In this document: positions 1,664 to 18,502 of the stretch, piece by piece | Layout of the letters: every line of letters starts with the position of its first letter | Numbering within the stretch: position 1 is the first letter of the stretch | IMG/VR virus record: IMGVR_UViG_3300020394_000877 | Span: 1-25,844 of that record | Reading direction: 5' to 3' (one strand) | Length of the DNA: 25,844 nucleotides | From: a virus | Translations under genes and position numbers: made by a program | The notes under the pieces: model-generated | Seen by the model: only the letters and a program-made list of their open reading frames with translations | Told to the model about the DNA's origin: nothing | Databases searched by the model: none

Positions 1664-3328
1664 CTATCTACCTCTATTCTGCTGAATTCTTCCAGACCTA
1701 CCGCGACCTTTACCTCCACCTAAACCTGATACATTCAACTCATCAGACATAGCGAGAAACGGGAAATCATTTGTAGTTACGCCGTACACATCTGACCCCG
1801 GCAAACGCTTGCGGCGTAGCAAGCCTGTTGCGGCGGTGTCTGGTATCAAACTCCGATTATTAATTGGCTGAGATATGTTTTGTGGTGCGGTCACGCCGCC
1901 TGTATTATCATCACCGCCTGTGTCGTCCGTAAACATAGAACGGTTACGAGCTTTACTATCAGAAAGCTGTGGCAAGAACCGGTTTATATCTACTCCGGCA
2001 TAATCTAGACCGGTAATACCAAGACTAAGAGGCACACCCAACACTTCACCAACTGTGCCAAAGATACTCGCAGTGTCTTTGTCTAACTGAGCATTTCTTA
2101 AACTATTGGCTGTGCCGCCTAAACCTAGTGCTGTGGAAAATGCGCCAGCCGGTGCAAAGAAACTAAACGCTTTACCTATATCACTTCCAAGGAAACCTCT
2201 GCCGCCACCTTCAACCATAAAAGAACCGGTTTCTGGGTTGTAATCTACAATTTGTTGATTACGAACTACGCCCTGACCGCCTAATAACTGGTCGGGTCTG
2301 CCTAACTTAATATCTGGATTTGCCGCTAGAAGTTCTGAAAAGGCGAGTGTTTGTGCGCCTTTGGTCATGTTTCCTATGTTAGGGACCCCATACTTTTCGC
2401 CGAGTTCCTTCAATTGGTCTTGAGTTACCAAAGCAAAGTTACCGGCTTCGCTGGCTGTCAAACCTAAGTTCTCAGATTTAAACGCTTGTTCTTTACCGCC
2501 TTCGCCTGAATAGAACCTACTAAAATCTTGAGTTACAGTATTGTCACCGCGTCTGTCCAGACGTTCTTGAAGATTTTGCTGACGCTGACTTCGCTCAAGG
2601 GTCTGTGAAGGTATCTCACCAAACTCCACATCGCCTGTCACGCCGCTTTCAAACGCCTCGTTTGCAAAACCCTCGGCTTGTGCGCTAGAGGTACCGGACA
2701 CGCCGCCACCTGTTAATGTTCCTGTTGTCCTATCAAAAGACCGCTTGGCCGATGTAGGTGCTGTGTACCCAGCCTGACCAATGACTTGCTGTGTAACGCC
2801 TTGGATAATAGAACCAACGGTATTGCCTTGGTTAGCGGTGCCACTTTCTGCTGAAGCTGTAGGGTCTATGCCTGTGTTTAGGAATTGTGAAATCTGTGAT
2901 TGAGTTGCGCCTTGTTCAGCCATAGTCCGGGCATAGTCTACCTCTGATGTGGTAGCGTTCTGTAATGCTCCATAGTTACCGCCGGGTTGACCTGAACCAG
3001 CACTCGATGTCCAACCGATTGCCGCGTCATCCGCTGTAGAACCTGTTTTGGAAACACCATTTACGCCAAAGGTAGTGCCGCCAGACGAACCGCTATTGTC
3101 ATCATTCCCGCTGTCACTAGAGCCTCCGGAACTAAAGTTATTGTTGTTACCGGTACTAAACTCACCACTATCTCCAACACCATAGGGGTCCTCAACACTA
3201 GAGCTACTACCACCGCCGCCGCCGCCGTCACTACTAAAACAAAATATCTTGGATTGAATAGGGTCCAGCACATCAACACAGTCTGTCAATGTGATACCAT
3301 CTCTATAAGGATTTATCTTTTGTAACAT
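1664..3328 (-). CDS. Putative virion structural protein with Gly/Ser-rich N-terminus
   Basis: About 554 residues from the ATG at 3328. A TTG two codons upstream is possible, but the ATG is preferred. The start overlaps the end of the acyltransferase-like gene by 26 bases. Residues ~35-85 are almost pure Gly/Ser/Asn/Asp, a flexible linker or disordered region. The centre is Gln/Gly/Ala-rich. Near residues 380-450 there is a weakly hydrophobic Gly/Ala/Leu/Phe segment that could touch a membrane. The C-terminus ends in a basic Gly/Arg tail (GGGKGRGRSGRIQQNRGR). A role as an internal or ejection protein is inferred from composition and position; no domain is recognised. Confidence 0.7.
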   Translation of the reverse strand: MLQKINPYRDGITLTDCVDVLDPIQSKIFCFSSDGGGGGGSSSSVEDPYGVGDSGEFSTGNNNNFSSGGSSDSGNDDNSGSSGGTTFGVNGVSKTGSTADDAAIGWTSSAGSGQPGGNYGALQNATTSEVDYARTMAEQGATQSQISQFLNTGIDPTASAESGTANQGNTVGSIIQGVTQQVIGQAGYTAPTSAKRSFDRTTGTLTGGGVSGTSSAQAEGFANEAFESGVTGDVEFGEIPSQTLERSQRQQNLQERLDRRGDNTVTQDFSRFYSGEGGKEQAFKSENLGLTASEAGNFALVTQDQLKELGEKYGVPNIGNMTKGAQTLAFSELLAANPDIKLGRPDQLLGGQGVVRNQQIVDYNPETGSFMVEGGGRGFLGSDIGKAFSFFAPAGAFSTALGLGGTANSLRNAQLDKDTASIFGTVGEVLGVPLSLGITGLDYAGVDINRFLPQLSDSKARNRSMFTDDTGGDDNTGGVTAPQNISQPINNRSLIPDTAATGLLRRKRLPGSDVYGVTTNDFPFLAMSDELNVSGLGGGKGRGRSGRIQQNRGR

Positions 3329-3773
3329 GCTCAAACGCCATACCTAACTTACGTATAGAACCATCTGGATATCTTCGGACCCAGTAAGCCCTATCTGTAT
3401 TGAAGCTGGGAGCAATCGGTGTAAGATACTCTCGTACCCATCTACCAAGTGTTCCAACATCTCCGTATGGCGCAATTAAATCCATTATGTATATCCGCTC
3501 TCCGCTCTTCCAGTCCGCTGGCTGTAGTTTGCGTGTACGGTTTAAAAATGAATTTTCAGCCTCGTAAGACAAAAAAGCCCAACTTATAAACCCAATGACC
3601 TTGCCGTCCCTGTAGAACAGTCGTGCTTGGTCCATCTCCATCGGCACAATAAACAGACGTTGTATGTCTTTTATGTACCAGTTTCTGTGCAATTCAGAGC
3701 GGAGACAAAGCTCTGTAATGTCACCTAATACTACATCATTTTTTATCTCTAGGCTAGACATAGACATAGACAT
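3303..3773 (-). CDS. HlyC-like (RTX toxin-activating) lysine acyltransferase homologue
   Basis: A 156-residue protein, close to the ~170 residues of HlyC-family acyltransferases, which move a fatty acyl group from acyl-ACP to internal lysines of RTX toxins. The family pattern is visible: LHRNWYIKDIQRLFIVP, then a Q-A-R-L-F-Y-R-D-G strand, SWAFLSYEAE, DWKSGERIYIMDLIAPYGD. His29 and Asp98 sit 69 residues apart, the same spacing as catalytic His23 and Asp92 of E. coli HlyC. The start region is odd: three in-frame ATGTCT hexamers give MSMSMSS, with no convincing Shine-Dalgarno upstream. The gene lies between a tail-like protein gene and a Gly-rich virion protein gene. The substrate in a phage is unknown; a virion protein is one possibility. 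Confidence 0.8.
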   Translation of the reverse strand: MSMSMSSLEIKNDVVLGDITELCLRSELHRNWYIKDIQRLFIVPMEMDQARLFYRDGKVIGFISWAFLSYEAENSFLNRTRKLQPADWKSGERIYIMDLIAPYGDVGTLGRWVREYLTPIAPSFNTDRAYWVRRYPDGSIRKLGMAFEHVTKDKSL

Positions 3774-3775
3774 AA

Positions 3776-5350
3776 TTATTTAATGTCAACCACTAATGCA
3801 AAGTCTAGAATTCTTAAATCACCAACCACACTGTAACCACTTGAACTGGATGTTGTGCTAAACTGCAAAGAGATAGCTTTGGCTCTGTGTGGAATCGGAA
3901 TATCAATTGGTCTGGTCTGGTCACCACTAATACCGGTGGTTGGCGCAAAGCTATCTGCTTCAGGACGGACTGTTGTAGACTGTAAGTTATTATTGTCTTG
4001 GTCAAAGACTGTGACTGTAAAGTCGGCAGTGCCTACTGCTCTAATGATAAGACGCTTAAACATCTTATACTGGTCTGGTGTATTCAAACTTAACAGCGGT
4101 GTACGGATACTCATATCAGCACTGCTCGGCTTAGAAGCTCTGGTTAAATCTTGACCATCACCTGTACCATTGCCCCATGTGCCAACTTGTAATGCAGAAA
4201 TTTGTGAACTTGTATCTGGCCTCGCAAAGAAAGATGCACATGAAATGTTTGTTGTAGGTGAAAAAGAAAAAGACCTAAAACCGCCGCGACCAACGCCGGG
4301 TTCATAAGTAAATGTCAAACGGTCAAATGTTTCAGATGGTGTGGGACCACCGATGTCACGCGGAAAGAAAACATGGTATTGCCCCAGTTCACCATCCCAA
4401 ACAGCATGGGGTTCTTGTCTTTCACCTGTGGTTGGGCAAGCCTGTACGGCTTCCTGAAACTTATCCTGTATCTCTCTAGATAACATAATTGTTTCAAGTG
4501 TAAGTCCTGAAGCCGCACGTCTCAGACTGTGAATACCAAAACGACTACAGAAGAATACATCTGTGCCTACGTTTACCGCTGTGTTTCTTCCGAAGATACC
4601 GATTGGCACTCTGAAATCTCTGGCGATTTGCCACTGGTTGATGTTGGTATCCGCAAGATACACCAGAGTTTCATTCTGACCGAAGACAACCAGTTTGTCC
4701 CCTTCAAGAACCGCCAAACCTTTAATGACATCATTACTGGAAAACTGGTTCTTAACGTCCAGTATGAGGCCGTCTGTGGCGGCAGGAGTTGTACCGCTCG
4801 TTGTATTAGTACGCCAATCATCAAAACTATCCTGTACACTAATGTGGATTTCCGTGGGTTTATTGGGTATCCCTGCGACAGCCAGTCTGTTTAATATGTT
4901 GACGGCATGACCCCCGTCTGGGTAACGACCAAGAGAACTTGCGTTAGTTGTGGTAGCACTTTGCCAAGCAGTCCCGTCCCAATACCTTGGAACGTGTCCT
5001 TCCATAAAAGAAAACTGTTTCTGGTCAAAGTTAACAATACTTATTGGAGTAATGGCCGCTGTAGTAGCGAGAAACATGTTGCTAAAAATAACATTGTTAG
5101 GGGCGCGGCCATCAATATTTGTGCCGTCATATTCATATTTAATTACAGCATCAGAGCCGTAATGAGCAATATTGTATATCTCACCACTGCCCTGACCAGT
5201 ATTATCAACGCCGGGTCCTCTTATAATCTGGCCACGAAAATCTACATATGCGCCATCCAGTTCAACAAAGAACCTCTCAGACATATTTGTAGGACTGGTT
5301 ACTGTATCCAGACCAATAAAACGATTATAAGGAAATAAACGCCTAGCCAT
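3776..5350 (-). CDS. Tail / packaged-DNA stabilisation-like protein (P22 gp10-type position)
   Basis: A 524-residue beta-rich protein with many short strands and Gly/Asn/Thr turns. A region around residues 225-285 reads VVFGQNETLVYLADTNINQW and then FFCSRFGIHSLRR. Such propeller-like strand repeats occur in P22 gp10-type stabilisation proteins and related podoviral tail hubs. It follows the adaptor-like gene, as gp10 follows gp4 in P22. The stop and the upstream partner's geometry are tight: this ATG shares one base with the TAA of the 5350-6021 gene. The gp10 assignment rests on position and general character rather than a decisive motif. Confidence 0.62.
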   Translation of the reverse strand: MARRLFPYNRFIGLDTVTSPTNMSERFFVELDGAYVDFRGQIIRGPGVDNTGQGSGEIYNIAHYGSDAVIKYEYDGTNIDGRAPNNVIFSNMFLATTAAITPISIVNFDQKQFSFMEGHVPRYWDGTAWQSATTTNASSLGRYPDGGHAVNILNRLAVAGIPNKPTEIHISVQDSFDDWRTNTTSGTTPAATDGLILDVKNQFSSNDVIKGLAVLEGDKLVVFGQNETLVYLADTNINQWQIARDFRVPIGIFGRNTAVNVGTDVFFCSRFGIHSLRRAASGLTLETIMLSREIQDKFQEAVQACPTTGERQEPHAVWDGELGQYHVFFPRDIGGPTPSETFDRLTFTYEPGVGRGGFRSFSFSPTTNISCASFFARPDTSSQISALQVGTWGNGTGDGQDLTRASKPSSADMSIRTPLLSLNTPDQYKMFKRLIIRAVGTADFTVTVFDQDNNNLQSTTVRPEADSFAPTTGISGDQTRPIDIPIPHRAKAISLQFSTTSSSSGYSVVGDLRILDFALVVDIK

Positions 5351-6021
5351 TAGGTATACTCGTTAATCTCAACCTCTAGATTTCCTTGAATATTAATCAC
5401 GGAACCTAACCAGTTGTTTAATGTGTTCAGATAAATAGAGTTCTTTAACTGTATTAAACCGGTGTTATTAGTATCAATGTCATCTACGGCGTAATATGCT
5501 TTCAAACCCTCAATAAGAACTTCATCATCAATGGGTCTGGTGTTGGTAATTGCTTGATATCGTTTCAGCCTCACCTTGTATGGGTGTGATACAACCACGT
5601 TTGAGACCGTGGTATCTGCTTCATCAGCCATCAGATAAGTCCCACTCACGGTGGAACCCCCTGAAGTTTTTGGTTTGACAACAAAAGAATACAAGTCTGA
5701 ACCACTATGACCGGCACCCGCTACCTTAACAGGTGTGTATGTACCAAATGTAACGGTGCCAGAAGCTATAGTGAGTTCATTAGAACCGGCTGTCATAGAA
5801 CCTGTTTGGTCATCATATGAATTGTCTAGCAAGTCTAGAAAGGTTGGATGTCTATTGATGTCTGCAACAATACGGTTTGCGTAGTTCAGAAACTTCTTTT
5901 CTTCCAATGCCCTCAAGACGGCGGGGCTGGCCTCACCATTTTCTTTGAGCATGTCATCAACTAACTCAGAGAGTGTTGAGAATTGACCTGTGCCGGAACC
6001 AGAGGGATTGAAACTTGACAT
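5350..6021 (-). CDS. Head-tail adaptor-like protein
   Basis: A 223-residue protein. The helical N-terminal half (TLSELVDDMLKENG, then ALEEKKFLNYANRIVADIN) resembles connector/adaptor proteins that dock under the portal. A beta-rich insert (~70-140) with Gly/Ser/Thr turns and a helical C-terminal part containing AYYAVDDIDTNNTG follow. It lies two genes downstream of the major capsid gene and directly upstream of the large tail-like gene, with a TAATG stop/start overlap that implies translational coupling. The role is inferred from gene order and secondary-structure character. Confidence 0.6.
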   Translation of the reverse strand: MSSFNPSGSGTGQFSTLSELVDDMLKENGEASPAVLRALEEKKFLNYANRIVADINRHPTFLDLLDNSYDDQTGSMTAGSNELTIASGTVTFGTYTPVKVAGAGHSGSDLYSFVVKPKTSGGSTVSGTYLMADEADTTVSNVVVSHPYKVRLKRYQAITNTRPIDDEVLIEGLKAYYAVDDIDTNNTGLIQLKNSIYLNTLNNWLGSVINIQGNLEVEINEYT

Positions 6022-6022
6022 G

Positions 6023-6448
6023 TTAACCTACCACTACTTCTTGGATGCGTCCCTGTCTGAAAAATACATGCTTGCGAAGGTAGTCTGCGACATCAGGTTC
6101 TACGGCGGCTTTGCCTTGCTCAAACCTAATCTTATGGGGACCGGCATCTACATCTATGCTGGAACGTCCGTTAAACTGAAAAAATATCAAATCTTTATTT
6201 GATTTTTTGGCTTCCTGAAGTTCAACCAGCTTTGGGTCATCTTTCATAGAAACCATTTTCCCATCAACTGTGATCGCATCCTTTTCCATGAAGATGTGGT
6301 TTTTGCGATATAAATGGTGTCGCTCAACTTGTTCAGCCAGTTTCGGGTCCACTGCGAGTACACCGCCTTCAAACTTATATACTTTGCCGTCTATGCTTAT
6401 CTCCATATTTGGACGCTTCGCATAAAACTTTACTTTCTTCGCTGGCAT
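6023..6448 (-). CDS. Capsid-region protein with an internal duplication
   Basis: A 141-residue protein made of two related halves. Residues ~6-54 and ~88-138 both follow the pattern F..., I-x-(I/V)-D, K-x-FE-x-G, A-V-(D/E)-P-x-(L/V)-A, then L/V...H...R-x, joined by a Lys/Asp-rich linker. The start ATG has a good upstream AGGAGA. It sits between the major capsid gene, from which it is separated by a terminator, and the adaptor gene. Small duplicated domains here could be decoration or head-completion proteins. No known family is recognised. Confidence 0.72.
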   Translation of the reverse strand: MPAKKVKFYAKRPNMEISIDGKVYKFEGGVLAVDPKLAEQVERHHLYRKNHIFMEKDAITVDGKMVSMKDDPKLVELQEAKKSNKDLIFFQFNGRSSIDVDAGPHKIRFEQGKAAVEPDVADYLRKHVFFRQGRIQEVVVG

Positions 6449-6466
6449 TACTGTCTCCTGTCTAAG

Positions 6467-6506
6467 TAAAAGAACCGCCTACAGAATAATCTCTATAGGC
6501 GGTTCT
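6467..6506 (-). terminator. Rho-independent terminator after the major capsid gene
   Basis: Read leftward, arms 6492-6506 and 6471-6485 form a 15-bp stem with one G-U pair and a 6-base loop, followed by UUUU. It lies 32 bases past the capsid stop. It probably attenuates transcription so that capsid message is favoured over the tail genes. Confidence 0.85.
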
Positions 6507-6537
6507 GTCTAGATTTTACTGTTAATCCGTGTCTGGA

Positions 6538-7713
6538 TTAAGAGGTTGCATTCCAGCCAGTGATGACAGCGTGTGTCTTTTCTTGCAGAATTTCTAGACC
6601 GGATTCGGTCAGGTATTCATCAATCACGCCATCTACGCCGTTACCCTGACGGTCCTTCAAAAGCTGTGTATCATCTACATAGCGATAGCGAAGGTCCTTA
6701 GTGTCAAGGATGATTGCGTCTTTTTCAGCACCCGGAATTTGACGGAACATTGGGTGAGTTTTCACCTGAAGTGTTCCAGCAAAAGTATTATAGGTGGTGA
6801 ACATCACACCGTAGGCATCGCCAGTACCAGTGGAATTAATCTGGTAGCGGTTCTTTGCCAGCTTCTGGAGATGGTCTGCTACCTTCCAACCACAGAGCAT
6901 TAGCTTTTCGGAAGAACCGAAAGCAAAGGCTTTTTCTGCGAGGAACGCATCAAACTCAGCTTCAGTAAGCACGCCAGCGTTTGCGTTTGCGGCGGCATCT
7001 TCTACGTTAGTAGTGATGGAGTTCATCAGGCCGTCTGTGTAACGCTCTGGGCGACCAGCAGAACCGGTGATGATGTCCTTCTTGCCAAACAGCATCGCAC
7101 GTTCCATACCAACCATATGCTCCTTCAGAGCATCGCGAGACTTCTCAAGGTACTGGTCACCAGTACGGAAGTTCGTGTGCATCGCAGTACGTGTGATGCT
7201 GTATGGAGTACGGAAAATTTGGCAGAAGTTCTCAGTGCTTGCGGCATCGTATGAGATGCTGTCTGGAACGTCCGCGCCTTCAGCGTTGGCATTACCAATC
7301 ATAAAGAAGATATCATTGGCAGTAATTGAAGCACCAGTACCACCGTTACCCACACCGCGAGTTACGGTCAGAGTAGTGGTTGATGGCTTTGCAGTTACTT
7401 TGACAACCTCACCAGTTGTGAAGTTTCTCATCAGCATACCAATACGAATGAAAGTTAAATCAGCCGCAGAAGTTGCAGTCAGAGTAGTAGCAGAAGCAGA
7501 GCCTGTGCCAGAGTGGGTGAAACGGAAATCCGGTAGGTCCTTACGGAAGTTGTGGAATTCCGGGTCATCAGTTGCTTCGGAAGGAAGCATCGAAAGAATT
7601 GCCGTCAGCGGGGCCGAACCATTCGGCTCCAGCATCAGGTACTTCTCACGATAATTTTCAGGGCGATGGTCAGCGGCAAAAGAGCCGGTGCCACGCATAC
7701 CGAGAGTAGCCAT
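6538..7713 (-). CDS. Major capsid protein (SU10/DUF5309-like, HK97 fold)
   Basis: A 391-residue protein, typical of HK97-fold major capsid proteins. Features of the SU10-like family are seen: an N-terminal segment ending in a loop with a small beta insert (~65-140, Thr/Gly-rich), then the spine-helix-like region TGDQYLEKSRDALKEHMVGM, ERAMLFGKK and a C-terminal domain with GWKVADHLQKLAKNRYQI. It is flanked by the scaffold gene and a capsid-region protein, and a strong terminator follows. It stands alone behind a 272-base untranslated stretch that carries a hexamer inverted repeat, so it may have its own promoter or mRNA leader. Confidence 0.85.
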   Translation of the reverse strand: MATLGMRGTGSFAADHRPENYREKYLMLEPNGSAPLTAILSMLPSEATDDPEFHNFRKDLPDFRFTHSGTGSASATTLTATSAADLTFIRIGMLMRNFTTGEVVKVTAKPSTTTLTVTRGVGNGGTGASITANDIFFMIGNANAEGADVPDSISYDAASTENFCQIFRTPYSITRTAMHTNFRTGDQYLEKSRDALKEHMVGMERAMLFGKKDIITGSAGRPERYTDGLMNSITTNVEDAAANANAGVLTEAEFDAFLAEKAFAFGSSEKLMLCGWKVADHLQKLAKNRYQINSTGTGDAYGVMFTTYNTFAGTLQVKTHPMFRQIPGAEKDAIILDTKDLRYRYVDDTQLLKDRQGNGVDGVIDEYLTESGLEILQEKTHAVITGWNATS

Positions 7714-7985
7714 AATTATTACCTCATATAGCCAGAGTTAAAAGGGGTTCGCCTCTCTGAAAGCTCCGTCTAGTCATTGTTCAGCTAGTTTCCTTTTGGT
7801 CTTGGCCTACACAACGCCATTTGGTTGGCATTCATCAAAGTCAACTACATAATAATATAGACATAGACACAAATCAACTGTTTATGTCTATGTCTATGTC
7901 TGTTCTGTGATAGGTGATTTGTAAGGTACTCGTCTTCTTCTGTTTCTAAGACGCTTAAAATCAAACCACCTACGCTTTCGCACTT
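7714..7985. other. Non-coding leader between scaffold and capsid genes
   Basis: This 272-base gap is the longest in the late operon. It holds only very short frames (16-17 codons) without convincing ribosome-binding sites, plus the inverted hexamer repeat listed separately. It may act as a leader or promoter region for the capsid gene. No clear -35/-10 pair could be assigned. Confidence 0.5.
7857..7902. repeat. Inverted AGACAY hexamer array upstream of the capsid gene
   Basis: Two AGACAY hexamers (7859-7870) face three ATGTCT hexamers (7884-7901). Bases 7857-7869 and 7885-7897 are a perfect 13-bp inverted repeat with a 15-base spacer. It could be an operator or an RNA hairpin. It uses the same hexamer that recurs near gene starts elsewhere in the window. 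Confidence 0.75.
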
Positions 7986-9125
7986 CTAGAGAAGGTCAAG
8001 CATTTGGTCATTAAAGCTACGAGAAGGTGCGGCTTGACCCGGCTCGTCTGAACCACGACTTGCTACAGTCTCACCACCGGCTCTCGCAATATCTTTTTCA
8101 ACCTGTTGCTTCATTTGAGCTTGTTCAGCCGCGTTACGACTACCGCTGGCTATAGCGTGATAGTCACGAATAGACTTATCAATAGCTGATGGATTAGTAG
8201 CAATCGCATTCTTATATCCGGGGAAAGTCTGCTCTTGCATCTCTACCCAAGAGATATAATCATTGAAAGTCTGTTCATCATCTATGCCAAGTTCCTGTGC
8301 GGTAGCAGATGCTTGAGCGTCAACAAGAGTTTGCTGTGATTGCATAGCCGCTTGCTGTTGTTGTTGCTTGAACATGCTGACATCTTCCATCAAGGTCGGC
8401 AGTACGGTAGCCGCTTGCTCAATAGCCGCAGAATATTTGAAGATGTTTGCCATTGATTTGAAAGCCGCATCTGTTGGCTGTAGACCATTCTCTTCAAAAA
8501 ATTCTTGGGCCGCTTGTGTGGCTTGCTCATCAGACTGCACATTTCTCTGCATTACGCGGGGGTCTGACTTGGCTTCAGCTACGGCGGGGCTTTCGGCTGG
8601 TGCCTCGGACTGGCCCTGCTGTGCTTGAAGCATTTGCAACATACCTTCACCCATAGCATTAGCTATTTGATTTGGGTCTGTAATACCGGTTTGCTCTTGC
8701 ACACGTCTAGCAAGTTCCATGATTGGGCCATACTTGCTGTCCATGCTCTTGAACTGCTGAAGCATAGTGATAGCTTTTTCTTCAGGGATTTCCTCTTCCT
8801 GACCGCGATACTTAATCTTGAGCATTCTAGAAATAGTATCAGCTTCTACATCACCCATGTCTTGAGCGTTTGCATCACCGGCCTCTGCGCCAGCCCTTGG
8901 GTCTGGGTTATTTGTCACTTCAAAATCAAAATCTACAGGCATTCTATCGTTGGCCTGTAGTCTTTCTGCCGCTGAGAAACCTGTCTTATCAGGGTTTGCC
9001 TCTGCGTCTGTCTGCGGAGTAGGGGCGTTTGCTGGGGGATTTGCCGCCTTTGCAGGGTCAGTGATTGCCCCAGAGCCGGGGTTCTTCTGTGCGGTTACTT
9101 CCGCTTCTGTCATATTCTCAGCCAT
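7986..9125 (-). CDS. Scaffold-like protein
   Basis: A 379-residue, acidic, Gln/Ala/Glu-rich protein between the portal region and the capsid gene, where scaffolds are encoded. The N-terminus (~1-75) is Pro/Ala/Asn-rich and probably disordered. Residues ~95-175 and ~215-360 look helical, including a FKQQQQQAAMQSQQ stretch suited to a coiled coil. The end is short and charged. P22 gp8 is ~300 residues, so this is somewhat longer. The start overlaps the preceding gene by 8 bases (ATGGCTGA). The call rests on position and composition, since scaffold sequences are poorly conserved. Confidence 0.72.
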   Translation of the reverse strand: MAENMTEAEVTAQKNPGSGAITDPAKAANPPANAPTPQTDAEANPDKTGFSAAERLQANDRMPVDFDFEVTNNPDPRAGAEAGDANAQDMGDVEADTISRMLKIKYRGQEEEIPEEKAITMLQQFKSMDSKYGPIMELARRVQEQTGITDPNQIANAMGEGMLQMLQAQQGQSEAPAESPAVAEAKSDPRVMQRNVQSDEQATQAAQEFFEENGLQPTDAAFKSMANIFKYSAAIEQAATVLPTLMEDVSMFKQQQQQAAMQSQQTLVDAQASATAQELGIDDEQTFNDYISWVEMQEQTFPGYKNAIATNPSAIDKSIRDYHAIASGSRNAAEQAQMKQQVEKDIARAGGETVASRGSDEPGQAAPSRSFNDQMLDLL

Positions 9126-14334: not shown

Positions 14335-14523
14335 GGAGATTTTTCAGCACCTACAGGACACCGGCCTTGCAAGCCAACCCGCTCACACCCCTCGCACCTT
14401 ATTGGACGAGCTTTGATAGCAACAAATAAAATGGCACTAGACCATGCTTATGCTGACAGGGGACAACGCAACCGAAAGGTAAAGTGATAGTGAGACTTCC
14501 AGACTGGGTTATGTCTGGCCATA
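14335..14523 (+). promoter_or_regulatory. Probable promoter and leader of the plus-strand operon
   Basis: This stretch between the terminator and the first ribozyme should hold the operon promoter. The best candidate is weak: TTGGAC (~14403) with AATAAA 17 bases later. CCAGAC/GTCTGG (14499-14504, 14513-14518) forms a hairpin with an 8-base loop just before the ribozyme, the counterpart of hairpins before the other two ribozymes. Confidence 0.4.
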
Positions 14524-14576
14524 GCTGATAGCGGGATGTGTGTCCCGCCTGATGATTGCGAAAGCATGAAATCAGC
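14524..14576 (+). ncRNA. Hammerhead ribozyme 1, type III, upstream of the cobS-like gene
   Basis: All conserved elements are present in order. Stem III is GCTGAT (14524-14529) with ATCAGC (14571-14576). A530 is the cleavage-site base (AUA triplet; cut predicted after 14530). Stem I is GCGGGA (14531-14536), loop TGTGTG, TCCCGC (14543-14548). The core CTGATGA is 14549-14555. Stem II is TTGC-GAAA-GCAT (14556-14567), three Watson-Crick pairs plus a U-U at the core-proximal position. GAA (14568-14570) plus A571, paired with U529, completes the core. The UGUG-type loop on stem I and the GNRA loop on stem II recall the loop pair of the tobacco ringspot satellite hammerhead. The U-U instead of G-C at 10.1/11.1 is atypical. 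The Shine-Dalgarno of the cobS-like gene follows 22 bases later. Confidence 0.9.
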
Positions 14577-14579
14577 AAC

Positions 14580-14590
14580 AGACACAGACA
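14580..14590 (+). repeat. AGACAC tract between ribozyme 1 and the Shine-Dalgarno
   Basis: AGACACAGACA follows the ribozyme and precedes AGGAG (14599-14603). It is a CA-rich, probably unstructured tract of the kind repeated before most plus-strand genes here. Confidence 0.75.
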
Positions 14591-14610
14591 GCATGGACAG
14601 GAGTGACAAC

Positions 14611-16098
14611 ATGCATAATTTCAAACTTACAGCGCAACAGCGCACTGCACTGCTCACAGATATGCGGGCAAAAATGAAACAACAGCCACACATTCTGGGC
14701 GAAAGTTTCAAACTACACTTGGCCAGCAAAGCTGAGATAATTGAGGCGGCTAGTAAACTGGGCTTAGATGCGGCCAGTTATGGTACGCCAGCCGGTGTAA
14801 CTGCACCGCGCACAACAAAGCCCAAGCCTGTACAGGCACAGCCAATTGCAAAGGCTGAAGTTGTTTCAGACATGGGTGACTGGGCTAAGTCTTCTGGTCT
14901 GGAAGAACAGGCAGACAGCATTCTGCAACAGCCTTATGCTGACCTACGGGGCAGTTTGATGCAGATGCTGTCAGAAAAGACAGACCTTCAGGCTAAACTG
15001 GCCAGCCGCCCAGCAGATAATGTGGTGGCCATGCCTGTTGCATCTGCACCGGCTATTGAGGTGCCGGATGTCAATGAACATGTCCAGCATGTTGAAGAGA
15101 CCGGCACAGTGAAGGCTGGCAAAATCTTTCGCGGTCTGAATGTAGACTGGGATATCCCTGTCTACAATGACACCCGCGCACCGGCTGTTGACCCAAATTA
15201 TGTGCCGGACCCAAAGCTGGCCCATGCTTTTCTTTCGGTTGCCAGACGTGCGGTGCCTTTGCCTATGCTGTTCTTTGGACCAGCCGGTACTGGTAAATCA
15301 TCTCTGCCCCGTTACTTTGCGGGACAGACAGGGCGGTCATTCTGGAACATCACTGTTTCTGATGACACAACAGTTGATGATTTCTTTGGCGGGTTCCAAG
15401 TGAGGGGCGGCACCACATACTGGTCTGATGGCCTACTGCTTAAAGCAGTCAGACAGCCCCGCGCTGTTATCCTGATTGATGAAGTAAGCAGGGCGCGGCC
15501 TGATGTACTGGTGGCCCTCAATGGTATCCTACAGGACCGCGAATATATCGTGCCTCAGACTGGTGAAAGTATCGCAGTTGCTGAAGGTGTCCAGATTATG
15601 CTGGCAGACAACACCAACGGGCGGGGTGATGCATCTGGCCTGTATGCCGGTGCAAAGCAGATGGATAGCAGTTTGCTGTCTCGCTGTGCAATCAAACTGC
15701 ACTTTGGCTACCCTTCAAAATCTCAGGAAAGTCGGGTATTGCGTCAGCGGTCAAATGCACCAAAGGCGTTCTGTGACAGTCTGGTAGACTTTATGTCTAT
15801 CTGCCGTAAAGCGCATGACAGGGGTGAGGCCCCAACCCTGACAGTTTCACTGCGGGAAAGTACCAACATTGCCCTGATGGTAATGGATGGCATGGACCCG
15901 TCAGAGGTTGTGCATTGGGTGATTGGTAATGCGCTGGAAGCGGTAGACCAAGAGACACTGACCCAGTTGTTCAACACCAATGTCAATCCTGATGAATGGG
16001 CGGCACTGGCCAGAGGTGAGACATGGACACCACCGGCTGATGAGGGTGATGCTGAAAAGCAGACTGACGGTGATGAGGATGAAATGCCTTTCAACTAA
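14611..16098 (+). CDS. MoxR/CobS-like AAA+ ATPase
   Basis: A 495-residue protein. The ATG at 14611 is chosen because AGGAG lies seven bases upstream; longer in-frame starts would run through the ribozyme. The N-terminal ~200 residues are helical with an Ala/Pro/Lys-rich linker. The AAA+ core has Walker A GPAGTGKS (223-230) and Walker B VILIDE (ending D290-E291), then ALNGILQDRE, a sensor-1-like LADNTNGRGD and SSLLSRCAIKLHF. This is the MoxR/CobS pattern, including the long insert after Walker B. MoxR-type ATPases act as hexameric remodelling motors with a VWA-domain partner, and the next gene encodes one. A cobaltochelatase role is unlikely since no CobN or cobalamin genes are seen. The C-terminus is acidic. 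Confidence 0.88.
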   Translation: MHNFKLTAQQRTALLTDMRAKMKQQPHILGESFKLHLASKAEIIEAASKLGLDAASYGTPAGVTAPRTTKPKPVQAQPIAKAEVVSDMGDWAKSSGLEEQADSILQQPYADLRGSLMQMLSEKTDLQAKLASRPADNVVAMPVASAPAIEVPDVNEHVQHVEETGTVKAGKIFRGLNVDWDIPVYNDTRAPAVDPNYVPDPKLAHAFLSVARRAVPLPMLFFGPAGTGKSSLPRYFAGQTGRSFWNITVSDDTTVDDFFGGFQVRGGTTYWSDGLLLKAVRQPRAVILIDEVSRARPDVLVALNGILQDREYIVPQTGESIAVAEGVQIMLADNTNGRGDASGLYAGAKQMDSSLLSRCAIKLHFGYPSKSQESRVLRQRSNAPKAFCDSLVDFMSICRKAHDRGEAPTLTVSLRESTNIALMVMDGMDPSEVVHWVIGNALEAVDQETLTQLFNTNVNPDEWAALARGETWTPPADEGDAEKQTDGDEDEMPFN

Positions 16099-16103
16099 AA
16101 ATC

Positions 16104-16132
16104 TGGCGGGGGCGGTTTTACTGCCCCTGCCA
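16104..16132 (+). other. Stable hairpin after the cobS-like gene
   Basis: Arms 16104-16113 and 16123-16132 pair over 10 bp with one G-U, around a 9-base loop, six bases past the stop. There is no U tract, so it is probably not a terminator. After cleavage at ribozyme 2 it would sit at the 3' end of the cobS-like mRNA and could shield it from exonucleases. Confidence 0.7.
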
Positions 16133-16133
16133 A

Positions 16134-16189
16134 TCTCTGATAGTCGGATGTGATCCGGCCTGATGATTGGGAAACCATGAAATCAGAGA
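16134..16189 (+). ncRNA. Hammerhead ribozyme 2, type III, between cobS-like and cobT-like genes
   Basis: Stem III is TCTCTGAT (16134-16141) with ATCAGAGA (16182-16189), 8 bp. A142 is the cleavage base (AUA; cut predicted after 16142). Stem I is GTCGGA (16143-16148), loop TGTGA, TCCGGC (16154-16159), with one G-U. CTGATGA is 16160-16166. Stem II is TTGG-GAAA-CCAT (16167-16178). GAA is 16179-16181, and A182 pairs with U141. Compared with ribozyme 1, stem II changes a C-G to a G-C pair, stem III is longer by different paired bases and stem I differs at several pairs, while all core bases are kept. That is compensatory change under selection for the fold. Confidence 0.93.
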
Positions 16190-16204
16190 CACAGACACAG
16201 ACAG
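16187..16204 (+). repeat. Three AGACAC/AGACAG hexamers before the cobT-like gene
   Basis: AGACAC, AGACAC and AGACAG run directly into AGGAG. The first hexamer overlaps the last bases of ribozyme stem III, so ribozyme and tract form one compact cassette. Confidence 0.85.
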
Positions 16205-16216
16205 GAGCAACTAGAT

Positions 16217-18190
16217 ATGTCTTATATCATTGCACAAGATTTAACCCACGCAGTAGACACTGCAATACAGACAAGCCTGAGACACTTGCCCGACTTTGGT
16301 AAAGTTGAATGTCAGGTTACTTGGCACGGTGGTGTCACGGCAGGGACCAACTGGTCTCTCAATGATACTGAGGACGGCAAATACCTACGCAGTCGTATCA
16401 ATATGCCTACTCTGCCAGCTACAGCATCTGTCACCAGATATGAGGCTGACACCATGACAGGCTTCGCCATCCATGAGATGGGCCATAATATCTGCACAGA
16501 TTTAGATGTCTGGAAAGAGGCATGCCGTAAAGGCAAAGAATATGCCCAGATATTAAATGCTTTTGAAGACCCACGCATGGAACTGGACTTGGTGTCACGG
16601 GGCCGTTTCGCTGGTGCCAGAAAATATTTAGAATTACTGACAGAATACTGTGTCAGTCATTCTAGACAAAATGGCTGGCACCCTGCTAATCCACGGTCTC
16701 TGTCATTCAGCATCAACACACTGGCTTATGTAGAGATGTGCGGCTATGAAGTGCCGTCTGCGGATGGCCTGTTGGATGAGGCTGGCCCGTTGGCCCCACA
16801 CATTCGCATGTGGGCCGACAAGTTGAAGCTGTGTAAAACAACAGCGGATGCATGGGCTTTGACACAAGAATTTGTGGACTACTACCCACAGCAACAGGAA
16901 GAGCCAGACGGTCAGCCAGATGTTGGTGAAGGTCAGGAAGGTGACCGGCCAGACACAGACAATCAGACCATGTCTTCTGATGTTACTGAAACACCGGATG
17001 CTGACAGTGCAGAAGCTGATGCAGATGCAGAGGCTGATGCTGATGCTGATGCAGAGGGTGATGCACAAGGTGCAACAGACACTGATGAGGCTGATGATGC
17101 TGAACAGCAGACACCCGATGCCCAGTCACCTGTCAAAGGTTTTAGTCCTGATGCCGGTGATGGCAGTGTCGTAGATGACATCAACCCTCTGGACCAGATG
17201 GATGCAGAACGTGATGTGCGGCCTATGGCTGACAATATTACAGACCGCAATCCAGATGCCCGTGGTCTAAAAGTGGTAGACATAGCGCGGAATTCTCAAC
17301 TGTCTCTGGAAGGTGGTTCCATCAAGTCCGGTAAGACACGGGCCAAGCAGATACGGGCAGACTTACCCCGCTCAGTAGGTGCGGCAAAGCAACGTATAAC
17401 ACGACTGTTAACCAACCCAGACAGACGGGGCGAATTGCGGAACCGTGACAAGGGACGTTTGGACAGGGGCCGTTTACACCGCCTGTCTAGCAATTCCAAT
17501 AATGTCTTTAACAAGACATGGAAGCGGTCAGGTTATCGGACAGCCGTTGGTATCATGGTGGACAATTCATCATCCATGCGCGGCTCAGACAACCATGATG
17601 CAGTCAAGCTGGCTTTTGTGTTGGGTGATGCTATGTCAGCGGCCAACATCAAGTTCTCTGTCTCATCGTTTCCTAGTGTCCAAGTCTCAGCCAGTCGTAA
17701 CACTGACTTTAAAACTGAATACACACAAGGTCATGATACGAATGGTATAGGCTGGGACCTAGCTGAAATGGGTATGAGACCCACGTATGAGACTGGTGGC
17801 CGTATTAGACCAGACACCGATGACAGCACAACACTTAAGCCGTTCAACATGCCTTGGTCTAAGTCCGACTACAATGTGACTACCCTATGGGGTAACACTG
17901 GTGGCGGTACACCCATGACTGAGGCTCTCATGACTATGGCATCACAGATGCGCGACTTGGATGAAGATAAGAAAGTTATATTCATCCTGACAGACGGTGG
18001 TGCCGGTGGTCCAGACCTTGAGCAGATGGTCAAGCTGGCTAACCAGTGGGGCATCAAAGTTGTCGGACTTGAGGTGGCACATTACGGGTCACGTAAAGAG
18101 TTTGCCGACTGCTTGAACGCAAACATCTGGGGCCGCACTGTCCATGAAATTCTGATGGACTTGGACAAGCTGGCTGATGAACTTGCCTAA
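16217..18190 (+). CDS. CobT-like VWA protein with a zinc-peptidase-like motif
   Basis: A 657-residue protein; AGGAG lies ten bases before the ATG. The N-terminal domain has His-Glu-Met-Gly-His at 86-90 (HExxH), followed by NAFEDPRMELD, the layout of CobT-type N-terminal domains. Residues ~225-300 are an acidic low-complexity linker of Asp/Ala/Glu repeats. The C-terminal VWA domain has a complete MIDAS: D449-x-S451-x-S453, T565 and D593 (LTDGG). Together with the upstream MoxR-type ATPase it makes a CobS/CobT-like motor-adaptor pair. In cobaltochelatase such pairs drive metal insertion with CobN; in other MoxR-VWA systems they remodel proteins. The presence of HExxH raises possible proteolysis, but CobT relatives may use it only structurally. 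Confidence 0.87.
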   Translation: MSYIIAQDLTHAVDTAIQTSLRHLPDFGKVECQVTWHGGVTAGTNWSLNDTEDGKYLRSRINMPTLPATASVTRYEADTMTGFAIHEMGHNICTDLDVWKEACRKGKEYAQILNAFEDPRMELDLVSRGRFAGARKYLELLTEYCVSHSRQNGWHPANPRSLSFSINTLAYVEMCGYEVPSADGLLDEAGPLAPHIRMWADKLKLCKTTADAWALTQEFVDYYPQQQEEPDGQPDVGEGQEGDRPDTDNQTMSSDVTETPDADSAEADADAEADADADAEGDAQGATDTDEADDAEQQTPDAQSPVKGFSPDAGDGSVVDDINPLDQMDAERDVRPMADNITDRNPDARGLKVVDIARNSQLSLEGGSIKSGKTRAKQIRADLPRSVGAAKQRITRLLTNPDRRGELRNRDKGRLDRGRLHRLSSNSNNVFNKTWKRSGYRTAVGIMVDNSSSMRGSDNHDAVKLAFVLGDAMSAANIKFSVSSFPSVQVSASRNTDFKTEYTQGHDTNGIGWDLAEMGMRPTYETGGRIRPDTDDSTTLKPFNMPWSKSDYNVTTLWGNTGGGTPMTEALMTMASQMRDLDEDKKVIFILTDGGAGGPDLEQMVKLANQWGIKVVGLEVAHYGSRKEFADCLNANIWGRTVHEILMDLDKLADELA

Positions 18191-18199
18191 ACTTAACAC

Positions 18200-18225
18200 G
18201 GGGTCACCGCTTCGGTGGTGGCCCC
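18200..18225 (+). other. Stable hairpin after the cobT-like gene
   Basis: GGGG (18200-18203) with CCCC (18222-18225), plus an inner CACCG-CTT-CGGTG (18205-18217), form a bulged GC-rich stem nine bases past the stop. No U tract follows. It matches the hairpin found just before each of the other two ribozymes. Confidence 0.65.
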
Positions 18226-18226
18226 A

Positions 18227-18276
18227 GCCACCTGATGAGGCCCGATGGTCTGGGCCGAAACGCATAGCGTAGTGGT
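18227..18276 (+). ncRNA. Hammerhead ribozyme 3, type I, after the cobT-like gene
   Basis: Stem I is GCCAC (18227-18231) with GTGGT (18272-18276), the last pair G-U. CTGATGA is 18232-18238. Stem II is GGCCC (18239-18243), an 8-base loop and GGGCC (18252-18256), with the canonical G-C at 10.1/11.1. GAA is 18257-18259. A260 pairs with U270, and stem III is a minimal CGC-ATA-GCG (18261-18269). A271 is the cleavage base (GUA; cut predicted after 18271). A very short stem III and opening at stem I are typical of type I hammerheads in bacteria and phages. It is not a copy of ribozymes 1 and 2: the strand order and stem sequences differ. Confidence 0.92.
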
Positions 18277-18284
18277 AGACCCAC

Positions 18285-18300
18285 AGACACAGACACAGAC
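18285..18300 (+). repeat. AGACAC tract after ribozyme 3
   Basis: AGACACAGACACAGAC leads into GAGAGG, the Shine-Dalgarno of the next gene. It is the third instance of the ribozyme - AGACAC tract - Shine-Dalgarno - start order. Confidence 0.85.
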
Positions 18301-18313
18301 GAGAGGTAATACA

Positions 18314-18502
18314 ATGTCTAAATTTACAGCGAGAGTAGAAGTTGTCGGACCTGTTTACAGGGACGTGATTGTTTTCGGAGACAGTCAAGCCGAACTGGTA
18401 GCAATGGCCCAGAGTGAATGGGCGCGATTAGTAGGTGGCCAAGTTGGCAACGCCCAAGCCACACAAATGGAAATTCTGGAGAAGGAAACAAACAATGACT
18501 AA
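18314..18502 (+). CDS. Small protein after ribozyme 3
   Basis: A 62-residue protein starting at the ATG at 18314, after GAGAGG. Upstream in-frame codons run through the ribozyme and are rejected. The sequence MSKFTARVEVVGPVYRDVIV, then FGDSQAELVAMAQSEWARLV, looks like a beta hairpin followed by a helix, a compact alpha/beta fold. The last bases overlap the next start (ATGACTAA). No family is recognised. Confidence 0.75.
   Translation: MSKFTARVEVVGPVYRDVIVFGDSQAELVAMAQSEWARLVGGQVGNAQATQMEILEKETNND

Follow-up and report, generated by a model that had tools for sequence, protein, structure and literature searches.

Why does a phage operon carry hammerhead ribozymes before, between and after its genes? 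We addressed this question in a marine phage represented by a 25.8-kb IMG/VR virus record, all of which (25,844 nt) was analyzed and is referred to here as the window. In the window, structural genes for terminase, portal and major head protein run leftward and an operon runs rightward; a search of the window for tRNA or tmRNA returned none. The first operon gene (14611..16098, + strand) encodes a MoxR/CobS-like AAA+ ATPase of 495 aa, with Walker A (GPAGTGKS) and Walker B (ILIDE) motifs. It matches Pfam AAA_5 (2e-23) and, when the longer ORF 14536-16095 is used, phrog_249 (3e-45). Adjoining this AAA_5 ATPase is the gene (16217..18190, +) for a CobT-like VWA protein of 657 aa, with an HExxH metallopeptidase motif at aa 86 and a MIDAS-type VWA domain (DNSSS at aa 449). 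It matches phrog_1576 (1.5e-14) and, weakly, CobT_C/VWA. A small third gene (18314..18502, +; 62 aa) has no assigned function.

We applied a strict hammerhead descriptor, comprising the core, three stems and a UH cut, to the window. Two type III ribozymes and one type I were found, all on the operon (+) strand, and no other; three matches compare with a chance expectation of 0.0 per type, obtained with the same descriptor on both strands of 200 dinucleotide shuffles of the window. Hammerhead 1 (type III; 14524..14576 or, more narrowly, 14525–14575) lies before the MoxR gene, with an AUA cleavage triplet and a predicted cut at 14530/14531. Hammerhead 2 (type III; 16135..16188 or, more narrowly, 16137–16186) lies between the MoxR and HExxH/VWA genes and has a predicted cut at 16142/16143. 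Hammerhead 3 (type I; 18228..18275) follows the HExxH/VWA gene, with a GUA triplet and a predicted cut at 18271/18272. A first-pass annotation had placed three hammerheads here, each following a gene or leader and preceding the next Shine–Dalgarno, with new 5' ends at 14531, 16143 and 18272; our analysis agrees on all of these points.

All three sites have the CUGANGA (CTGATGA in the DNA) and GAAA core, A15.1–U16.1, UH at the cut, and three helices in circularly permuted I/III order. At sites 1 and 2, the type III fold is the minimum-free-energy structure (–20.9 and –19.4 kcal/mol, respectively), and 2/200 shuffles fold as well. Site 3, when folded alone, forms stems II and III, but pairing with upstream sequence competes with its 4-bp stem I. 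Stem II base pair 10.1–11.1 is U-U at sites 1 and 2. This is the commonest state in viral type III ribozymes (78/138) and the best tolerated mismatch, with activity below that of G-C (PMC3088659). Loop I UGUG and loop II RAAA are conserved across 186 type III sequences, compatible with a tertiary contact between the loops of stems I and II. From established hammerhead chemistry, we infer that the mRNA would cut itself into pieces beginning with 5'-OH.

The first-pass annotation had proposed a scan with the Rfam hammerhead models as a check. At the gathering score, neither RF00008 nor RF00163 gave a match in the window; relaxed thresholds gave one mis-registered 21-bit Hammerhead_3 match, at site 3. 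But the hammerhead of phage PaP3, published in 2011, is also missed by Rfam, as are the other phage hammerheads tested, none of which passed the cut-off. Because the PaP3 ribozyme fails too, we attribute the miss to low model sensitivity and discarded it as evidence against the window hammerheads. The gathering cut-off lacks sensitivity for phage hammerheads, and passing it is no defining trait. By contrast, covariance models built from unrelated phages, with the window and its relatives excluded, recovered site 1 (E 5.7e-21), site 2 (E 7.3e-17) and site 3 (E 1.5e-10), showing homology to independently found hammerheads. Other matches to these models in the window were a weak type III-model match overlapping site 3 (E 0.054) and matches with E of 0.56 or worse.

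Covariation in the stems was strong. Among 35 distinct type III sequences, picked by a descriptor requiring pairing, 96% of pair cells held standard pairs versus 60% in shuffled data, and 13/15 stem pairs had changes on both sides. Since these sequences were chosen for pairing, a raw pattern scan specifying only loop and core letters is the fairer test. With no pairing demanded, 170/170 distinct viral matches paired at the three inner positions of stem II, and 143 of the 170 were complete type III hammerheads.

Related phages, where the first-pass annotation had proposed to look, have the same arrangement. In five close relatives (L001–L004 and L010), none of the three junctions has lost its ribozyme, and the fragments L005–L007 retain them wherever the junction is covered. 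Hammerhead 3, for example, is conserved in L001–L005, L007 and L010. The stems in these relatives, including those of hammerhead 1, show compensatory changes. In L016, a more distant phage whose MoxR is 41% identical, the order is hammerhead, 102 aa, 120 aa, hammerhead, MoxR, hammerhead, VWA, hammerhead.

Each junction in the window is built in the same order: stop codon (or leader), a GC hairpin lacking a U tract, hammerhead, (CACAGA)n leader, Shine–Dalgarno and ATG. The hairpin just 5' of hammerhead 1 (CCAGAC..GTCTGG; 14499..14518, +) is predicted to cap the leader fragment at its 3' end; in L001 and L004, an unrelated and stronger hairpin occupies this position. Between the MoxR stop codon and hammerhead 2 is a strong hairpin (16104..16132, +; –25.9 kcal/mol), predicted to cap the MoxR mRNA at its 3' end; this hairpin shows compensatory changes in L007 (GGTAGGGGC..GCCCCTACC). 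Another strong hairpin (18200..18225, +; –22.3 kcal/mol) lies between the VWA stop codon and hammerhead 3; in L010 it carries a compensatory change, and in L007 a different hairpin takes its place. At these junctions, then, structure is preserved and sequence varies. A fourth hairpin, GUGG-UAGAC-CCAC (18272..18284, +; –4.6 kcal/mol), sits at the predicted 5'-OH end left by hammerhead 3. Folding indicates that it can form only after that cut, as it re-pairs a stem I strand. Intrinsic terminators were considered for the upstream hairpins and rejected, since there is no U tract and none was called at the three window sites.

Downstream of the ribozymes, a leader of the ACAGACACAGACA type with a Shine–Dalgarno precedes the MoxR gene (14583..14604, +), and (CACAGA)n leaders with a Shine–Dalgarno precede the VWA gene (16190..16207, +) and the third gene (18282..18308, +). 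Repeats of the CACAGACA type are seen before several window genes (at 14583, 16190, 18282, 19710 and 21497), including genes that have no hammerhead, and possibly represent a shared unstructured leader. A different feature was seen in other phage gene leaders (L287–L363), where a small hairpin holds the Shine–Dalgarno in its loop while the stem varies (AATTCTTGGAGGAATT and AATACTTGGAGGTATT are examples). Such hairpins were found at 47% of 129 starts, versus 19% in shuffled controls.

The MoxR–VWA context, taken in the first-pass annotation as a local detail, turned out to be a recurring, conserved association. A ribozyme search blind to gene content kept returning MoxR–VWA operons divided by hammerheads. 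Most multi-hammerhead loci obtained from the ribozyme pattern alone carry another MoxR-type ATPase (phrog_1297) together with a DUF2201 protein (metallopeptidase plus VWA-like). The typical order is hammerhead I, MoxR, hammerhead III, a 325-aa gene of no assigned function, hammerhead III, DUF2201, hammerhead III. In the reverse, ribozyme-blind search, the phrog_1297-type MoxR family gave 80 loci (54–100% identity to the query). Strict hammerheads were present in 80/80 loci, 223 in total on the operon strand, although many of the contigs are related and these are not independent events; the opposite strand and shuffled copies of these 80 loci each gave 0. The restriction to the operon strand and the absence from shuffles point to a role at the RNA level. 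Position was also specific to type, with type I directly upstream of MoxR in 58/58 cases and type III directly downstream in 60/61.

This association does not extend to all phage CobS-like genes. General dependence on hammerheads was rejected, as only 1/32 of the distant genes had one directly upstream. Because these distant CobS-like MoxR genes lack them, we regard the hammerheads as a property of certain phage lineages. At the junction of the 325-aa gene and DUF2201, the effect of a ribozyme module on spacing can be compared directly: without it, the genes are tightly spaced or overlapping (median 22 nt), whereas with it the gap is ∼137 nt. It is as if coupled expression had been traded for uncoupled expression. 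Both MoxR partners, that of the window (16217–18190; HEMGH/DNSSS) and the DUF2201 proteins of A5 (HEASH/DTSGS), join an HExxH motif to a VWA-type domain. This likeness suggests that different phages form complexes of the same kind.

Larger arrays were also seen. The most extreme one found, in L131 (record G002, 22.5 kb), packs 14 hammerheads into 6.6 kb (2017–8605), 12 of type I and 2 of type III, with one at nearly every junction among ∼15 small genes and an ATG ∼18 nt after each. Record G003 (L122) has 15 hammerheads on one strand. In L172, a Parcubacteria MAG contig (JANLIU010000041.1), ten type III hammerheads lie within 4 kb (2476–6527) with little coding sequence between them; a GC hairpin precedes each, and repeated structured non-coding stretches separate them. 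The locus resembles a series of non-coding RNAs delimited by ribozymes. Pattern matches in bacterial genomes (L155–L271) come largely from Patescibacteria/CPR assemblies.

Single hammerheads occur in cultured phages, which makes them usable experimentally: type I in Methylophilales phage MEP301 (L284, 704–751) and Cellulophaga phage phi18:3 (L285, 21906–21956, – strand), and the already known type III ribozyme of PaP3 (L286, 45418–45468, – strand). The hammerhead of PaP3-like Pseudomonas phages (Bruynoghevirus) shares 88% identity with site 1 over 43 nt. Unlike site 1, it has no MoxR–VWA context; it precedes a leftward block of genes, ahead of the first of them, and is the only one in its genome by this descriptor.

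We then asked where hammerheads and hairpins lie relative to genes across viral loci. A gene begins within the next 60 nt after 74% of type III and 87% of type I hammerheads, versus 9% for random positions, and the ribozymes are almost never inside genes. The extra hairpin tends to sit on the side that the ribozyme leaves uncovered, upstream for type III and downstream for type I. For the 40 nt 5' of the ribozyme, unusually strong structure (z < –2) was seen in 64% of type III and 25% of type I cases (p=3e-7 between types) and in 29% of hammerhead-free junctions of the same phages, though the phages are related, so that this and the other hairpin statistics lack full independence. In 99/148 cases, no more than 1 nt separates the upstream hairpin from the type III ribozyme that follows it, and only 8 have a T-rich spacer. 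In the ribozyme-blind MoxR set, upstream hairpins were found in 41% for type III versus 18% (p=0.017), and downstream hairpins in 55% after type I versus 18% after type III (p=0.001). In type I leaders before MoxR, unrelated sequences form a hairpin ∼4–5 nt from the predicted new 5' end.

This rule is not universal, since the long type I arrays of L131 and L122 mostly lack the 5' hairpin. Arrays of this kind account for the marginal result (p=0.05) when all type I ribozymes were pooled in a simple test of the downstream hairpin; the effect holds in the MoxR set. Hairpins of at least 7 bp at the 5'-OH end, when counted, were not clearly more frequent than in shuffles (21/31 versus 48%), so the claim for type I 5' ends draws on folding energy and the listed structures.

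How do these operons relate to known systems? The first-pass annotation was wrong to regard sets of hammerheads dividing phage genes as unheard of. The general idea is not new, because Perreault 2011 described multiple type I and III hammerheads flanking single prophage genes and proposed processing into gene-length mRNAs (PMC3088659). One such array, the triple array at ardA of Agrobacterium tumefaciens, cleaves in vitro and in E. coli (PMC3088659). As in the window, the clustered prophage hammerheads include several on one strand and transcript that flank individual genes, and they too have U-U at 10.1–11.1. But the gene identities in those arrays were stated not to be constant, whereas here the MoxR–VWA operon recurs. 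The phages studied here differ also in that each ribozyme type has its own positions, the end hairpins go with the type, and arrays reach 14–15 ribozymes. New, then, are the conserved MoxR–VWA link, the end-hairpin rule and the size of these arrays. Ribozyme, MoxR and phage were not found jointly in the literature searched. An earlier mention of MoxR is possible in Weinberg 2015, which reportedly lists ribozyme-associated genes.

A second comparison is with the RNase III sites of phage T7 (mentioned in PMC6993053), which act in intercistronic processing. They likewise cut polycistronic phage RNA between genes and leave a folded, stabilizing 3' end on the upstream mRNA. There, a host protein cuts and the product has a 5'-phosphate, whereas in the window we predict an RNA self-cut that leaves a 5'-OH. 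We take RNase III as an analogue only.

The best explanation for the arrangement is probably autonomous intercistronic processing, with predicted cleavage yielding separate, end-capped messages. The leader, MoxR, VWA and downstream genes would be transcribed as one RNA. We infer this from strand and spacing, and a promoter between genes is possible. Each hammerhead would cut itself between two cistrons, giving separate mRNAs. In the type III case, the ribozyme would remain on the downstream piece, with stem I as a 5'-terminal hairpin behind the 5'-OH, and the upstream piece would have its 3' end capped by the separate GC hairpin directly 5' of the ribozyme. In the type I case, the ribozyme would remain on the upstream piece, the stem III hairpin closing its 3' end, and in MoxR–VWA lineages an extra hairpin would form at the new 5'-OH end. 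Hairpin placement thus matches the ends expected to be bare, since type III would leave the upstream RNA, and type I the downstream RNA, without a closing hairpin.

Such cutting would need no host enzymes or nucleases, and hammerhead arrays are known to cleave in E. coli (PMC3088659). Both kinds of end may favor stability. 5'-OH ends are a poor substrate for the 5'-monophosphate-dependent mode of RNase E, a mode that a 5' stem-loop blocks in ompA, and E. coli seems to have no kinase acting on hammerhead-made ends (PMC4191395). A folded 3' end generated by RNase III processing stabilizes mRNA (PMC6993053). The most likely benefit is that each cistron would have its own half-life and leader, allowing the AAA+ ATPase and its VWA partner to be made in unequal amounts, which we consider a plausible gain.

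Could the ribozymes instead serve as leader insulators, the cut trimming every 5' UTR to a short standard form in which the Shine–Dalgarno is accessible, and cistron separation being a side effect? The RiboJ insulator (Lou 2012, Clifton 2018, per PMC6993053) has this layout, a hammerhead and then a hairpin before the ribosome binding site, as seen for the type I phage modules. The predicted post-cut leaders are short and uniform, as in L131 with its ATG ∼18 nt after the ribozyme, and hammerhead 1 of the window lies in a leader with no operon gene upstream. However, RiboJ is synthetic, single and confined to a 5' leader, whereas the phage modules are natural and repeated and, for type III, include an extra hairpin upstream. 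Insulation leaves unexplained both these hairpins abutting type III ribozymes and the replacement of overlapping-gene junctions by ribozyme modules, and we judge it unlikely as the main role. Regulated switching, in which a ligand, Mg2+, a protein or passing ribosomes would control cleavage and so set the expression of each gene, has a natural precedent in the self-cleavage of glmS, and the U-U base of stem II, by weakening the core, could make a hammerhead tunable. Yet no conserved aptamer-like domain adjoins the ribozymes, and the flanking hairpin sequences differ between relatives; regulation of this kind seems quite improbable.

Two further possibilities have still less in their favor. Hammerheads produce ends that are chemically right for ligation, and eukaryotic hammerhead elements make circular RNAs, so the pieces, with 2',3'-cyclic phosphate and 5'-OH, might be rejoined by an RtcB-like enzyme into circular or spliced RNAs. 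But Perreault 2011 sought spliced or circular products and found none (PMC3088659), and RtcB is absent from the seven phage records searched, including the window; as these records may be partial, its absence argues only weakly against re-ligation. We consider this very unlikely. The ribozymes might also be relics or spreading elements with no current role at these junctions, in keeping with their presence at many different genes and the gain and loss of junctions. The strict core, the compensatory changes at orthologous sites, the 0 matches on the opposite strand and the 80/80 presence in the MoxR set all speak against this, making it highly improbable.

These data show that one kind of phage operon, encoding a MoxR ATPase and an HExxH/VWA protein, is repeatedly divided by hammerheads, and that standard RNA databases miss hundreds of such ribozymes. 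They also provide a testable rule, in that the end left bare by each ribozyme type predicts the place of the extra hairpin, and a source of natural insulator parts in the form of hammerhead modules. A 2017 review called the role of prokaryotic hammerheads, those of bacteria and phages, an open question (PMC6155905). We tentatively suggest that phage MoxR–VWA operons may form a class of ribozyme-punctuated operons, in which conserved junctions carry hammerheads with a hairpin on the uncovered side of each. Their cuts would yield capped single-gene mRNAs and so set the ATPase:VWA ratio, and some phages would extend the scheme to a whole gene block with 14–15 ribozymes. If true, phage hammerheads would have a general function for the first time.
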